Assembly: GCF_013408795.1 (NCBI RefSeq)
Contig: NZ_JACCCC010000001.1
Coordinates: forward strand, 248,001-312,000
Length of the DNA stretch: 64,000 nucleotides
Direction: 5' to 3'
Source of the DNA: Spinactinospora alkalitolerans
GTDB lineage: Bacteria; Actinomycetota; Actinomycetes; Streptosporangiales; Streptosporangiaceae
This document shows, piece by piece, positions 1 through 24,302 of this stretch. Both the position numbers and the translations under genes were made by a program. Every line of letters begins with the position of its first letter. Positions within the stretch are counted from its first letter, which is position 1. A model generated the notes under the pieces. That model was not told where the DNA came from. It made no database searches and was given only the letters and a program-made list of their open reading frames with translations.

Positions 1-1255
1 GCCTGGTGACGACCTCGGCCGCTCTACGGAAATTGAAGGCGTTGACCTCGGCATCCAGGCGGGCGGGCGCCTCGGCTCGAGCCCGGCGCAGGTCCGCCGA
101 CAGCTCGTTCTCCTCGCGCAGTGCCGGTATCACGCCCCTTCGATACCTGTTGACCATGGACACCGTTCGGTTGACGAGGTTTCCGATGTTGTTGACAAGG
201 TCCTCGTTATTGCGGGTGACCAGGCGCTCATCGGTGTAGTCGGTGTCGCCTGCGAGCGCGACGTCGCGCAGCATCCACCAGCGCACGGCGTCGGCGCCGA
301 ACCTCTCGGCGAGTTCGGACGGGTCTGCGGCGTTGCCCGCTGATTTGCTGATCTTCCTGCCGTCGGCGGTCAGGTACTCGTGCACGAAGACGGTGGTGGG
401 CAGCTCGACCCCGGCCGACAGCAGCATGGCCGGCCAGTACACGGCATGGAAGCGGACGATGCCCTTGCCTATGACGTGGACGCGCTCGTCGCTGCCGGTC
501 CACCAGTGCGCGAAGCCCTCACCATCGGTGCCGTAGCCGGGCGCGGTGATGTAGTTGGCGAGCGCGTCGTACCAGACGTAGATGACCTGGCCGGGCCGGT
601 CCGGCACGGGGATACCCCAGCCACGGGCCCGTTCCATGCTGCGCGAGATGCTGAAATCCTCGAGGCCGGACTCGATGAACGACAACACCTCGCGCTTGCG
701 GTGTGCGGGCTCGATCTTCAGCCGGTCGCTGGAGATCAGCTCAATCAGCCGGTCCTGGTAGCGGCTCAGCCGGAAGAACCAGTTGTTCTCCTCGATCAAG
801 TCCGGTCGCACGCGGTGCTCCGGACACAGCCCGTCGTCGAGTTCATCATCGGCGTAGTACTGCTCGCAGCCATAGCAGTACAGACCGGTGTAGTTCTTGG
901 TGTAGAGGTCACCGCGCTCGGCGCAGGCCGCCCACAGCTTTTCCACACCGGGGCGGTGTCGAGGGTCGGAACCGGTCTTGATGAAGTCGTCAAAGGACAG
1001 GTTGAGGGCCTTGCCCAGCTTCAGGAAGTCCTGTGCCACCTGCTCGACGTACTCCTGCGGGCTCACCCCGGCCGCCTCGGCGCTCCGCACGTTCTTCAGG
1101 GCGTTGTCGTCGGTTCCGGTCTGCGCTCGCACCTCATCGCCCCGTTGTCTGCGGTAACGGGCCAAAAAGTCGGTCTCGACCAGTTCCAGGGCGTGTCCGA
1201 CGTGCGGTCGGCCGTTTACGTAGGGAATGGCGGTCATGGCGAAGTAGCGACTCAT
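1..1255 (-). CDS. metG: methionyl-tRNA synthetase, 3' end beyond window
   Basis: Charges tRNA-Met with methionine in the cytosol (class I synthetase). About 418 N-terminal residues are visible. The HIGH-type motif HVGH is at residues 18-21 and the KMSKS-type motif KISKS at 301-305. A zinc-knuckle-like set C127, C130, C144, H147 lies in the connective peptide, followed by the helical anticodon-binding region. Residues 46-52 read TGTDDNA where most MetRS have TGTDEHG. Together with the cysteines, this differs from the usual actinobacterial housekeeping MetRS as I remember it, so a second, specialised MetRS is possible. ATG at 1253-1255 is preceded by GGAAAGG at 5-nt spacing. The gene lies behind a Met-rich leader peptide and hairpin (1287-1396). 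MetRS identity is certain; the paralogue idea is inference. Confidence 0.93.
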   Translation of the reverse strand, partial: MSRYFAMTAIPYVNGRPHVGHALELVETDFLARYRRQRGDEVRAQTGTDDNALKNVRSAEAAGVSPQEYVEQVAQDFLKLGKALNLSFDDFIKTGSDPRHRPGVEKLWAACAERGDLYTKNYTGLYCYGCEQYYADDELDDGLCPEHRVRPDLIEENNWFFRLSRYQDRLIELISSDRLKIEPAHRKREVLSFIESGLEDFSISRSMERARGWGIPVPDRPGQVIYVWYDALANYITAPGYGTDGEGFAHWWTGSDERVHVIGKGIVRFHAVYWPAMLLSAGVELPTTVFVHEYLTADGRKISKSAGNAADPSELAERFGADAVRWWMLRDVALAGDTDYTDERLVTRNNEDLVNNIGNLVNRTVSMVNRYRRGVIPALREENELSADLRRARAEAPARLDAEVNAFNFRRAAEVVTR

Positions 1256-1286
1256 GCGGACCTTTCCGCCCCGCCGCCGCCCCGGC

Positions 1287-1349
1287 TGAGGAGGCTCCGG
1301 CTGGGGCCTCCTCAAGCGGTTGGATCAGGGCACGCGTGAGAGGCCGGAG
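1287..1349 (-). promoter_or_regulatory. candidate attenuator hairpin and competing pairings in metG leader
   Basis: On the minus strand a perfect 9-bp stem, TGAGGAGGC (1314-1306) with GCCTCCTCA (1295-1287), closes a 10-nt loop between the leader peptide and metG. Two segments inside the end of the leader ORF can compete with it: CTCCGGC (1349-1343) pairs perfectly with GCCGGAG (1301-1295), and GGCCTC (1345-1340) with GAGGCC (1310-1305). Mutually exclusive stems after a peptide rich in the regulated amino acid are the hallmark of ribosome-mediated attenuation. There is no U-tract after the stem, so it could act as a weak terminator or at translation level. The function is inference. Confidence 0.6.
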
Positions 1350-1396
1350 AACATCATCATCCGACTCGGCATCATGGCCATGCGTGCCCGCTGCAT
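1325..1396 (-). CDS. Met-rich leader peptide of metG
   Basis: This 23-codon ORF ends 70 nt before the metG ATG. Met is at codons 1, 6, 8, 9, 13, 14 and 15, so 7 of 23 residues are Met, including an MM and an MMM run. Stop TGA is at 1325-1327, 10 nt before the hairpin. The start ATG lies 7 nt after a TAGCAT box, which fits a leaderless transcript. A longer in-frame ORF begins at 1507, but the Met cluster and the promoter-like box favour this start. Such clusters of the cognate codon are typical of attenuation leader peptides, for example the trp, ilv and leu leaders. Translation has not been shown. Confidence 0.65.
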   Translation of the reverse strand: MQRARMAMMPSRMMMFSGLSRVP

Positions 1397-1403
1397 GCTG
1401 ACG

Positions 1404-1438
1404 ATGCTATCCCGTACCGCCCTGCGACCGCCTGTCAA
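1404..1438 (-). promoter_or_regulatory. candidate promoter of metG leader
   Basis: A TAGCAT -10 box (1409-1404) sits 7 nt before the leader ATG, placing the transcription start at or next to the A of ATG. A perfect TTGACA occurs at 1438-1433, but the gap of 23 nt is too wide for a classical -35, so only the -10 box is used as evidence. Confidence 0.45.
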
Positions 1439-1618: not shown

Positions 1619-2332
1619 ATGGATCACCGGTACCGGATTGAAGGCGACATCAACAGCAGGGCGGTCCTGGGCGTCGGCTCGGGATACACCGACCCAGTAG
1701 CCGGAACCAGCGAGATGGAGGTTCGCTTTGAGCGGCTTCCCAGCGGCTGGGATCCCCGCACCATCGTCCTGATGTGCTGTGAGCGGGCCACCGTGACGTG
1801 TTCCAGGGAGAGCGACGGAGCGGTCGGCATGTTCCAGGCGTCCGGCGGTTACCTGACGATCGGCCGCGACCTGGTGAAGGTCGAACGGCGCGGCACCATG
1901 CGCAATGCCGAAGGCCAGATCATGGTCGACGTTCACGCCAGTTCGGTTACGGACTTTCGGGGTGAGCACCGCTACGATCACTCCCGGATCGAAGGCGGGA
2001 CCTCCCATATCCATTATGGAGAGAACGGCATCGCCGAGGTCCGGCCCTTCACCGGGGTCATGATGCAGGCCGGCCCGAACCTCATCACCGTCACCACCAG
2101 TTATGAAGCCGTTCTGGAGGACGACTCAACGCTCTACGGGACAACGTTCTACCCGCACTACCTCCCGCAGCAGCGAGTCCAGCTCCCCGGCCTCCAACTG
2201 CTGTCGCTGGTCTCGATCGAGCAAGAGTTCGACGGCCGGACCCTGTGGGTGCGCACCGAATCCGAGGTCACCCCGCTGACCCGCATGGCTGTTCCGGCGC
2301 CGACGGCCTCACAGCCCTCTGCGATCGGGTAG
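1619..2332 (+). CDS. hypothetical protein, 237 aa
   Basis: Not recognised. The protein is soluble-looking, with no signal peptide or membrane segment, rich in short beta-like stretches, and ends in a Pro/Ala/Ser tail. ATG at 1619 follows AAAGGG at about 1605-1610. It is transcribed divergently from the metG leader and lies next to the WhiJ-like regulatory trio, so it belongs to an accessory patch. The upstream region holds a perfect AAGTGCACTT palindrome at 1522-1531 that could be an operator. Codon use is ordinary for the window, so it is probably a real gene of unknown function. Confidence 0.65.
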   Translation: MDHRYRIEGDINSRAVLGVGSGYTDPVAGTSEMEVRFERLPSGWDPRTIVLMCCERATVTCSRESDGAVGMFQASGGYLTIGRDLVKVERRGTMRNAEGQIMVDVHASSVTDFRGEHRYDHSRIEGGTSHIHYGENGIAEVRPFTGVMMQAGPNLITVTTSYEAVLEDDSTLYGTTFYPHYLPQQRVQLPGLQLLSLVSIEQEFDGRTLWVRTESEVTPLTRMAVPAPTASQPSAIG

Positions 2333-2833: not shown

Positions 2834-3055
2834 CTAGAGGGCGTCGCGCTTGGCGGCGGTGAGGAAGGCCCGCCACTCGGCGGAGGGGAAGAGGAGGGTG
2901 GCCATGTCGCGGTTCTGGGTATCGCGCACGGCGGAGGCGCAGGGGGCGTCGGCGACCTCGACGCATTCATTCCGTGTGGCGCTGTAGCTGCTCTTACGGA
3001 AGATGAGTCGTTCGGTCTCGGGCTTGTGGGGCATGGCGGTTCTTTCTCTACTCAT
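2834..3055 (-). CDS. DUF397 protein (BldB-like family)
   Basis: A small 73-aa protein of the DUF397 family, which includes BldB-type developmental regulators of actinomycetes. The family core is visible as FRKSSYSATRNECVEVADAP followed, after a short linker, by TLLFPSAEWRAFL. Its ATG overlaps the stop of the upstream XRE gene by 8 bp (ATGAGTAG), indicating a translationally coupled two-gene operon. In actinobacteria these proteins are normally encoded next to a DUF5753 XRE regulator and often an anti-sigma-like ATPase, as here. They are thought to act through protein-protein contact with the XRE partner; the DNA or signal target is unknown. Confidence 0.9.
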   Translation of the reverse strand: MSRERTAMPHKPETERLIFRKSSYSATRNECVEVADAPCASAVRDTQNRDMATLLFPSAEWRAFLTAAKRDAL

Positions 3056-3899
3056 ATCTCTTGATCAACTCTGCCATGCGAGTTGTCGAGGCCTCTGGAT
3101 GGTCGGCCATGACACGGATGTCATCCCAGGCCTCTCGGTAGATCTCGACCATGGTGGGATCCTCTTGGTAGATACCGTCGGTGCGCGTCTCGAAGTACGC
3201 GATCGGCTTGTCCGCCGGGTTGGGGAAGTCCAGAAGAGTGAACGATCCGGTGATGCCAGGGTGCAGGCCACGTTCGAGAGGGAGAACCTGGATCTTTACT
3301 GTGTTCACCTCTTCCGAGAGGCAGATGAGTTTTTCGATCTGGGCGCGCATGACGTCCTTGCCGCCGGCGGGGCGTAGCAGCACTGCTTCGTCGATGACCG
3401 CCCAGAGCTTCGGCGCATCCTCGCGGTCAAGGATCTCCTGGCGTTCCATCCGGGCCGCCACCGCCCGCTCGGTGGCGCTCGTGTTGCGCAGGTGCACGGC
3501 CCGGTCCGAGGCCGTGGCGTATTCGGGAGTCTGAAGCAGGCCGGGAACGACCATGGTCTGATAGGTCGAGATGACCGATGCTTCTGCCTCGAATCCGACG
3601 TAGGCGTCGGTGAAGACATCCTCGAACTTTGTCCACCAGCCCTTGGCCCTGCTCTGCTTGGCCAGCGTCACCAGTGCTTCGGTGGTCTCCTCGGACGCCT
3701 TGTAGAGCGTGGCGAGCGCGCGCACGATCACGGGATCGGGGCGCTTCCACTTGTTCAGCTCCATGTTCGTCAGGCGACCACGTGACCAGCCCAGGTGTTC
3801 GCCTACCTGCTCGGCCGTCAGGTTCGACTCTTCGCGCAAGCGTTTCAATTCAGCAGACAGCCGTCTCCTGCGGAGGGTAGGGCTCAGTCTGTCTGCCAC
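3048..3899 (-). CDS. XRE-family regulator with DUF5753 domain (WhiJ-like)
   Basis: 283 aa. An N-terminal helix-turn-helix at about residues 15-65 (LKRLREESNLTAEQVGEHLG) is followed by a DUF5753 domain from about residue 95 to the end, with the family phrase VVPGLLQTPEYA. This is the architecture of WhiJ and other Scr1-type regulators, which repress developmental or antibiotic genes and are relieved by their DUF397 partner. It is coupled to the downstream DUF397 gene by an 8-bp overlap and is divergent from an AbaA-like ATPase at 4080. The AT-rich intergenic region carries a candidate operator. Target genes cannot be read from the sequence. Confidence 0.9.
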   Translation of the reverse strand: MADRLSPTLRRRRLSAELKRLREESNLTAEQVGEHLGWSRGRLTNMELNKWKRPDPVIVRALATLYKASEETTEALVTLAKQSRAKGWWTKFEDVFTDAYVGFEAEASVISTYQTMVVPGLLQTPEYATASDRAVHLRNTSATERAVAARMERQEILDREDAPKLWAVIDEAVLLRPAGGKDVMRAQIEKLICLSEEVNTVKIQVLPLERGLHPGITGSFTLLDFPNPADKPIAYFETRTDGIYQEDPTMVEIYREAWDDIRVMADHPEASTTRMAELIKRYE

Positions 3900-22884: not shown

Positions 22885-23025
22885 AGCTCATCCAGAGGGG
22901 TGGAGGGAACGGCCCTGCGAAGCCCCGGCAACCATCTCGGTGAACGTTTCTCGTCAGGTGCGAGGCGGCCGGGACAGGTGCCAACTCCGCCCCGTGGTCA
23001 GAGCGGCCACGGGAAAGATGAGGGG
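22885..23025 (+). ncRNA. SAM-I (S-box) riboswitch
   Basis: All hallmarks are present. P1 is CTCATC (22887-22892) paired with GATGAG (23017-23022), then AGAGGGGTGGAGGGA, then GCGAAGCCCCGGCAACC, then AGGTGCCAACTCCGCCC. P4 is CCGTGG/CCACGG (22992-23009 region), and GGAAAGATGAG closes P1. The 3' strand of P1 runs into the AGGGGAG ribosome site of the next gene, so SAM binding would more likely affect translation than terminate. It precedes a gene annotated by homology as threonine synthase, although SAM-I aptamers normally govern methionine, cysteine and SAM genes. Confidence 0.96.
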
Positions 23026-23036
23026 AGACGCCTCGC

Positions 23037-24302
23037 ATGGCGATCACCGCCACGGAACCCGCACCCACCGCCGCCCACGCCTTCGGCCCCGCCGTCGCGC
23101 TGTCCTGCCGCGAGTGCGGTGAGCGCTACGAGCTGACCCCCCGCTTCGCGTGCGAGTTCTGTTTCGGCCCGCTCGAAGTGGCCTACGAGTTCGGATCGGT
23201 CAGCCGTGAGGAGATCGAGCGCGGCCCGAAGAACATCTGGCGCTACGCCGGCCTGCTGCCGGTCCCCGGCGACGTCCAGAACCTGCCCAACATGAACCCG
23301 GGCCTGACCCCGCTGGTCCGGGCCGACCGGCTCGCCGCGGAGCTGGGCCTGCGGTCGCTGAGCGTCAAGGACGACTCCGCCAACCCCACGCACTCCTTCA
23401 AGGACCGCGTCGTCGCCATGGCGGTGGAGGCCGCGCGCACGTTCGGCTTCCACACGCTGTCCTGCTCCTCCACGGGCAACCTCGCCGGCGCCGTGGGCGC
23501 GGCCGCGGCCCGCGCCGGCTTCAAGTCCTGCGTGTTCATCCCGGCCGGCCTGGAGGAGGGCAAGGTCGTGATGGCCGCCGTCTACGGCGGGCAGGTCGTG
23601 GCCATCGACGGCAACTACGACGACGTCAACCGCTTCTGCTCCGAGCTCATCGGCGACCCGGCCGGCGAGGACTGGGGCTTCGTCAACGTCAACCTGCGCC
23701 CCTACTACGGCGAGGGCTCCAAGACCCTGGCCTACGAGATCGCCGAGCAGCTCGGCTGGCGGGTGCCCGACCAGATCATCATCCCGATCGCGTCCGGCTC
23801 CCAGCTCACCAAGATCGACAAGGGCTTCCGCGAGCTGATCGAGCTGGGCCTGGTCGAGGACCGGCCGTACAGGATCTTCGGCGCCCAGGCCACGGGCTGC
23901 TCCCCGGTCGCCAAGGCGTGGGAGAGCGGCCACGACGTCATCCAGCCGGTCAAGCCCGACACCATCGCCAAGTCGCTGGCGATCGGCAACCCGGCCGACG
24001 GCCCCTACGTGCTCGACATCTGCAAGCGCACCGGCGGCGCGGTGGCGCACGTGAGCGACGCCGAGGTGGTCGACTCCATCAAGCTCCTGGCGCGCACCGA
24101 GGGCGTCTTCGCCGAGACCGCGGGCGGCGTCACGACCGGCGTGCTGCGCAAGCTGCTCGCCGAGGGCGCGCTCGACCCCGAGGCCGAGACCGTGGTGCTC
24201 AACACCGGCGACGGGCTCAAGACGCTCAACGCCGTGGACTCCGGGGTCACCGCGACGATCCGGCCGTCCCTGGACGCGTTCCAGGACGCCGGACTCGCCT
24301 GA
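23037..24302 (+). CDS. threonine-synthase-like PLP enzyme under SAM riboswitch (possible homocysteine synthase)
   Basis: 421 aa, fold-type II PLP enzyme of the ThrC family. The N-terminus holds a zinc-ribbon-like C24-x2-C27-x11-C39-x2-C42. The PLP lysine is in NPTHSFKDRVV, and the phosphate loop region includes SCSSTGNLAGAVG. By homology it would convert O-phosphohomoserine to threonine. Context argues otherwise: a SAM-I riboswitch immediately upstream and a ThiS/MoaD-like carrier 101 bp downstream point to methionine and sulfur metabolism. The enzyme may instead transfer sulfur from a carrier thiocarboxylate to O-phosphohomoserine, giving homocysteine. I recall such a pair being proposed in Streptomyces but cannot verify it. 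Family certain, reaction inferred. Confidence 0.85.
   Translation: MAITATEPAPTAAHAFGPAVALSCRECGERYELTPRFACEFCFGPLEVAYEFGSVSREEIERGPKNIWRYAGLLPVPGDVQNLPNMNPGLTPLVRADRLAAELGLRSLSVKDDSANPTHSFKDRVVAMAVEAARTFGFHTLSCSSTGNLAGAVGAAAARAGFKSCVFIPAGLEEGKVVMAAVYGGQVVAIDGNYDDVNRFCSELIGDPAGEDWGFVNVNLRPYYGEGSKTLAYEIAEQLGWRVPDQIIIPIASGSQLTKIDKGFRELIELGLVEDRPYRIFGAQATGCSPVAKAWESGHDVIQPVKPDTIAKSLAIGNPADGPYVLDICKRTGGAVAHVSDAEVVDSIKLLARTEGVFAETAGGVTTGVLRKLLAEGALDPEAETVVLNTGDGLKTLNAVDSGVTATIRPSLDAFQDAGLA

Follow-up and report, generated by a model that had tools for sequence, protein, structure and literature searches.

A conserved methionine-codon leader with competing RNA helices precedes one kind of methionyl-tRNA synthetase gene and probably acts as an attenuator

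One kind of methionyl-tRNA synthetase (MetRS) gene was found to be preceded by a short open reading frame rich in Met codons, and computational comparison of related genes showed that this ORF is conserved among them. The ORF is followed by RNA segments that can form mutually exclusive helices, and its anatomy makes it very likely, in our judgement, that the element is a classical ribosome-mediated attenuator of the trp type, which senses charged elongator tRNA-Met and controls the MetRS gene. From this anatomy we infer that the leader is translated, that the ribosome stalls, that transcription ends at the hairpin and that MetRS is induced. The evidence for the element comes from sequence comparison, the leader as a whole having an ordinary folding energy (z -1.29).

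The element was recognized in a stretch of 64,000 nucleotides (71.6% G+C) of the 6.68 Mb genome of Spinactinospora alkalitolerans, hereafter the window; its features are listed in Table 1. An initial annotation of this DNA had described an ORF of 23 codons, seven of them for Met and three of these consecutive (MMM), and, 10 nt past its stop, a perfect 9-bp hairpin; both were confirmed, the ORF at 1396-1325 (-) and the hairpin by pairing of 1314-1306 with 1295-1287. The MetRS gene placed downstream is also there, with its ATG at 1255, and the description needs correction only in that this is one of two MetRS genes in the genome. The leader is the sole ATG-started 23-codon stretch with seven Met codons in the 64 kb window, the runners-up having five, and five Met codons per 23-codon stretch were reached in none of 60 Markov-shuffled windows.

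Table 1. Features of the MetRS leader region (positions in the window)
Feature	Position	Strand	Remarks
MetRS gene, 5' part	1..1255	-	509 aa product; ATG at 1255; extends past the window to genome position 247729
Likely Shine-Dalgarno of the MetRS gene, GGAAAGG	1261..1267	-	read from the sequence
Segment 4, attenuator hairpin 3' arm GCCTCCTCA	1287..1295	-	U-run absent after it
Segment 3, attenuator hairpin 5' arm TGAGGAGGC (1314-1306)	1305..1314	-	GAGGCC 1310-1305 pairs with segment 2
Leader peptide ORF MQRARMAMMPSRMMMFSGLSRVP, then stop	1325..1396	-	23 codons, 7 Met
Segment 2 TCCGGCCTC	1340..1348	-	GGCCTC forms antiterminator 2:3 with segment 3
Met-Met-Met codons ATG ATG ATG, putative regulatory	1352..1360	-	relatives have Met codons at the same place
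Segment 1 GAGTCGGA	1360..1367	-	protector hairpin 1:2; runs into the Met-Met-Met codons
Predicted -10 box TAGCAT	1404..1409	-	7 nt upstream of the leader ATG

Relatives of the MetRS gene were collected by searches of 297 family genomes and 394 class genomes and by a scan of named genomes, which gave four loci, two Crossiella and Actinorugispora among them. The relatives found were 48-84% identical, the closest named one (84%) being that of Actinorugispora endophytica DSM 46770. The 250 nt upstream were examined in 80 genes (including the window's own and the two of Crossiella), in 24 more class-level genes and in seven plasmid-borne genes, the criterion being an in-frame ORF holding two adjacent Met codons (ATGATG). 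Such a Met-Met leader was present in 60/80, 21/24 class-level and 7/7 plasmid genes (46-56% identity), a total of 88/111 including the window, against 1.6 expected from dinucleotide shuffles and 1/111 on the reverse strand. Among the 23 genes without Met-Met, 18 had an ORF that was located by its -10 box and contained one or more internal Met codons, and no leader was found upstream of MetRS at L019, L027, L066, L075 and L088. The tandem cognate codons read ATGATG or ATGATGATG. A Met-Met leader was found in 0/21 housekeeping MetRS genes, in 0/12 MetRS genes of 38-41% identity and at 0/5 distant MetRS genes of the plasmid collection; under the relaxed definition (-10-box-placed ORF, at least one internal Met) the result was 0/33 control genes. 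The initial annotation had proposed aligning the orthologous upstream regions for conserved Met runs, and in this check the Met codons proved conserved, with Met-Met in 88/111 and a single Met in 18 more. These counts leave out L011 (same genome as L016), L141 and L146 (genes identical to L045 and L046), L014 and L158 (distant MetRS, leader absent) and a partial match in G132; the class matches G421, G511, G392 and G412 were not counted either, and three of them (G421, G511 and G412) were later recovered by an RNA model.

That covariance model was built on 32 leaders and was blind to protein. The window's genome gave one strong match (58.7 bits), the next match being at 30.9 bits at a locus without a MetRS start. 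When 246 class genomes were searched, a MetRS of the window's kind lay just downstream in 29 of the best 30 loci, nine of them from training-set genomes and 20 outside training; three of these 20 (G352, G384 and G340) had been missed by the protein search of the 394 class genomes. A Met-Met leader was identified by script in 25 of the 29. The one locus of the best 30 that breaks the pattern, L191 at 35.3 bits, apparently falls within an unrelated coding region; model matches below 35 bits were numerous, and the linkage figure covers the best 30 loci.

The leader also occurs ahead of MetRS genes on plasmid records of Embleya, Streptomyces, Rhizobium, Sinorhizobium and Agrobacterium. All seven Rhizobiaceae plasmid matches (H3-H9, 45.9-47.1% identity) carried it, two of which postdate the 111 count, and one leader-bearing plasmid, pBSY16_2, was typed as conjugative by prediction. 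Leader peptides containing MMPRS are common to Actinobacteria and Rhizobium. A MetRS tree was built from 72 sequences, without L045-L092, whose sequence stretches were too short; in it all leader-bearing genes fell in one clade (58 of 65 tips) with support of 0.979, and the distant MetRS genes fell outside it. The MetRS gene has probably spread along with its leader. At L188, from 1634 onward, a MetRS relative is apparently broken soon after its start, with the Met leader and hairpin still recognisable.

The second MetRS of the window's genome has 607 aa and is encoded at 639 kb (L010). The nearest solved relatives of the 509-aa MetRS are presumably the Aquifex, Brucella and mycobacterial enzymes. 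The best NCBI models were PRK12267 for the 509-aa enzyme and PRK00133 for the 607-aa enzyme, with both scores below the curated cut-offs, and we read the two enzymes as MetRS types 1 and 2, which are described in PMC8165550. Among 35 genomes carrying the window's kind of MetRS, which were picked by hand and some of which are incomplete (down to 92%) so that a second MetRS may be missed, at least one additional MetRS was found in 25 and the gene was the sole one found in 10. The leader was present in seven of these 10, namely Actinorugispora and six genomes of the f17 genus, and absent from three (L019, L066 and L075). The seven sole-MetRS genomes with a leader suggest that the control extends beyond auxiliary enzymes.

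Two stretches of the leader had been noted initially as complementary to the hairpin, GGCCTC at 1345-1340 to GAGGCC at 1310-1305 in the 5' arm and CTCCGGC at 1349-1343 to GCCGGAG at 1301-1295. The first pairing is conserved in 23/23 sequences of the window's clade and was retained as 2:3; for the second, conservation was not apparent by eye in the alignment. This clade, clade A, comprises 23 sequences, among them Crossiella and 13 genomes from one genus (family f17); all 23 entered the count of pairs, 21 the Shine-Dalgarno folding (without L013 and L020) and 19 the U-run and energy set (without L013, L020, L131 and L132). Segment 2 reads TCCGGCCT followed by C or T in clade A, and 2:3, to which it contributes its final six bases, has 6/6 pairs in 23/23 sequences; the outermost pair is G-C in 10, A-U in four and G-U in nine. 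The upstream part of the leader offers segment 2 another partner, segment 1 being paired with 1348-1340 in the minimum free energy structure of the window. Counted over bases 1364-1358 and their counterparts, 6-7 of 7 pairs of 1:2 are present in 22/23 sequences and 4 of 7 in L018; in L022 both members of a 1:2 pair have changed, from T-A to C-G, and one Met codon is lost thereby. The other large clades show by eye an equal layout in different letters (CCCCGC, GCGGGGCC, GAGGCCCTG and CGGGGCCTC).

Pairing between lineages was assessed by a swap test, in which segments were exchanged among 34 representatives (8-mer Jaccard <0.12) and binding to the own partner was compared with binding to exchanged partners. 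Own partners were preferred strongly for 3:4 (z -11.7, 0/20000) and also for 2:3 (z -4.2, 3/20000), and the controls with reversed segment 2 and with the wrong partner gave z of 0.4 and 1.0. For Actinobacteria alone 3:4 gave z -10.8, and 2:3 was weaker, with z -3.4 for 30 representatives and z -2.1 (410/20000) for 28; L041 and L068, in which the hairpin was mis-assigned, are included in the sets of 34 and 30 and were dropped for that of 28. Clade A alone gave z -1.9 (614/20000) for 2:3 by energy. Across an alignment of 32 leaders the 3:4 helix forms in 85.8% of the cells, not in all, and double-changed cells numbered 24 as compared to 8.2 in shuffles (0/500); when the helix was shifted along the alignment the signal dropped sharply. 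By these computations 3:4, and less strongly 2:3, covaries between lineages. Compensatory changes in the stems of orthologues had been named in advance as a check on the hairpin, and they were seen for both helices.

A fifth segment, which would pair with segment 4 and latch the antiterminated state, gave z -2.8 (57/20000) over the 34 representatives, with z of -1.6 to -1.8 in Actinobacteria and -0.2 in clade A, and is not claimed. In the Rhizobiaceae plasmid loci L153-L157, L195 and L196 a segment after the terminator can pair with the terminator 3' arm into a strong alternative hairpin, in several cases seen by eye; this arrangement is weakly supported elsewhere.

The position of a promoter motif is conserved as well. 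TANNNT ends 6 (50 leaders), 7 (29) or 9 (1) nt upstream of the in-frame leader start in 80/88 leaders, the background being 2.4% per position; the five rhizobial leaders, L038, L072 and L139 lack it at that spacing. This spacing implies a leaderless transcript that would start at or next to the leader ATG, and the transcript start near 1396 expected in the initial annotation is fitted by the -10 box predicted 7 nt before that position. For S. lividans, a -10 motif TAnnnT and several leader peptides on leaderless transcripts are described in PMC8079986. A TTGACA at 1438-1433, separated from the -10 box by 23 nt, was considered as a -35 box; it was not visible by eye in the aligned relatives and was not accepted.

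The geometry of the segments would suit such a transcript. In nine leaders picked from the 88, the end of segment 2 fell within -9 to +11 nt of the first base of the stop codon; with the generally known length of a ribosome footprint, this location suggests that a terminating ribosome would cover segment 2, letting 3:4 form. Segment 1 begins just ahead of the Met run and reaches into it, and a ribosome waiting at the first Met codons would cover segment 1 and leave segment 2 free. In the proposed sequence of events, transcription would begin at or beside the leader ATG. With ample Met-tRNA the ribosome would reach the leader stop and cover segment 2, the 3:4 hairpin would form and transcription would mostly stop before MetRS. 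With scarce Met-tRNA it would stall at the Met codons and cover segment 1, 2:3 would pair and block 3:4, and the polymerase would continue into MetRS. The direction of control suggested at the outset, that a stall under scarce Met-tRNA frees a leader segment and breaks the hairpin, is supported by this anatomy. Severe loss of Met-tRNA would starve initiation of the leader too: methionine both initiates and is sensed, so that the switch must act between mild shortage and loss of initiation.

How the hairpins would act on the MetRS gene was judged from the sequences behind them. In 81 of 83 actinobacterial leaders (L041 and L068 left out) T accounted for 35% of the 9-nt stretch behind the hairpin compared to 16.5% of the upstream region, and in five rhizobial leaders 44% compared to 24%; at least four T in these 9 nt were present in 39/81 and 3/5, an example being GGCGGTTTTTC of a Rhizobium plasmid. 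In the window's clade, 0/19 leaders had at least four T in 9 nt after the hairpin, and the T fraction was 0.129 versus 0.147. The missing U-run, together with a distance of just 31 nt between the end of the hairpin and the MetRS start codon, would agree with translational attenuation, in which the ribosome-binding site of MetRS would be masked or opened by the alternative hairpins and transcription would not be ended. We consider this unlikely, since folding alone predicted the Shine-Dalgarno to be freed (>0.1) in the antiterminator state in 0/21 clade A leaders and 5/88 overall, and to be less exposed in that state in 10/21 and 20/88, and since relatives have the U-rich stretches just described. 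For the element as a whole transcription attenuation is therefore favoured, by these U-rich stretches and by the Shine-Dalgarno not being freed; at the window's own hairpin, where a U-run is lacking, we infer termination.

The same lack of a U-run in the window's clade would suit attenuation by Rho, whose access would be governed by the stalled or terminating ribosome with the hairpins merely assisting, and Rho has been proposed for actinobacterial cys leaders without terminators (PMC1262725). Covariation of 3:4 and 2:3 between lineages would be unneeded under Rho control, and we hold this explanation to be quite improbable. Arrest by the nascent peptide, in which the peptide itself would stall the ribosome on a drug or metabolite and its sequence rather than Met-tRNA would be sensed, could account for motifs after the Met codons that recur within clades (MPRSRGR, PSGLPRV and R-P...G-P...V-R forms). 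These residues, however, overlap segments 1 and 2 and vary between clades, the motif is cut short in other leaders, which end as MMPR or MMAP, and by eye the Met codons alone are common to all clades, which leaves this reading very little probability. As for a chance Met-rich ORF next to a chance GC-rich hairpin, hairpins are abundant in a GC-rich genome and the fold of the whole leader is usual. We give chance next to no weight: the leader is present in 88/111 genes versus 1.6 expected and in 0/38 control MetRS genes, the helices covary, and the RNA model is linked to MetRS at 29/30 loci, 20 of them outside its training set; on this comparative evidence the conservation already refutes it. 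The trp-type attenuator is the reading retained below.

The initial annotation had pointed to attenuation of trp, ilv and leu genes and mostly T-box control for synthetases; the literature holds closer precedents, namely leaders of leuS, trpS, alaS and thrS and a Met leader of metNIQ. The Streptomyces attenuators of trpS and leuS (Seliverstov et al. 2005, PMC1262725) resemble the present element: a leader peptide carrying cognate codons is combined with helices for antitermination and termination ahead of an actinobacterial synthetase gene. They differ in having Trp or Leu codons where Met codons are found here, and the trp and leuS terminators have poly-U tracts, which the window's clade lacks. 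Ahead of methionine operons that actinobacterial survey reports no conserved RNA structures. For S. lividans TK24, eight leaders are listed in PMC8079986, including metL (metNIQ), alaL, thrL, leuL and trpL2, and MetRS is absent from that list. The S. lividans metL is likewise leaderless with a Met-containing leader peptide, but it lies ahead of a methionine importer and its Met codons are scattered; alaL, thrL, one leuL and trpL2 share with the present leader a place ahead of synthetase genes, and trpL2 and thrL are described there without a uridine-rich stretch. In the window's own genome, 4.5 kb at the MetQ-type importer operon contained no short ORF with at least three Met codons.

A T-box raises the expression of a synthetase when its tRNA is uncharged. 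The Met element differs in that it would sense through a leader ORF and has no T-box match: no T-box was matched in the window at the Rfam gathering threshold, no Rfam family at all was matched in eight relatives, and a search of 1230-1430 at E up to 10 returned eight weak matches, which all scored far under their gathering thresholds and did not include a T-box. A Met-codon leader for MetRS was found neither in Rfam nor among the literature matches listed (titles and abstract openings, few subscription journals). The element shows those structural features of classical attenuators that were examined, except for the U-run in the window's own clade, and as far as we searched Met and MetRS are new to the synthetases known to be attenuated by a leader. 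With it, methionine and MetRS would join the list of synthetases attenuated through a leader peptide, among bacteria whose methionine operons showed no conserved RNA structures in an early survey.

An auxiliary, antibiotic-resistant TrpRS is reportedly under ribosome-mediated transcriptional attenuation and induced when charged tRNA falls (Vecchione and Sello, 2010). It is likewise reported to be a second synthetase gene under an attenuator with a cognate-codon leader, and it is the closest functional parallel to the element; it differs in the amino acid, Trp, and in that the Met leader also precedes the sole MetRS found in 7/35 genomes and no inhibitor is known here. That the leader is linked to a MetRS which is scattered widely and is often an additional one points to natural inhibitors of the enzyme that would be worth seeking. 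A tentative possibility, to which we assign a minor share of probability, is that MetRS and leader form a portable self-inducing cassette, spread across actinobacterial families and onto Rhizobiaceae plasmids, which would supply a MetRS of the alternative type when hypothetical natural MetRS inhibitors or methionine analogues block the resident enzyme.

No biosynthetic-cluster gene was recognized among the few proteins scanned near the MetRS gene. Its neighbours include an ORF without a Pfam match at 1619-2332 (+) and an HTH/DUF5753 regulator at 3048-3899 (-). No SAM riboswitch was found at the leader; the window's only Rfam SAM match is RF00162 (76 bits) at 22885-23024 (+), immediately 5' of a PALP-family PLP-dependent enzyme gene at 23037-24302, the product of which we read as threonine-synthase-like.
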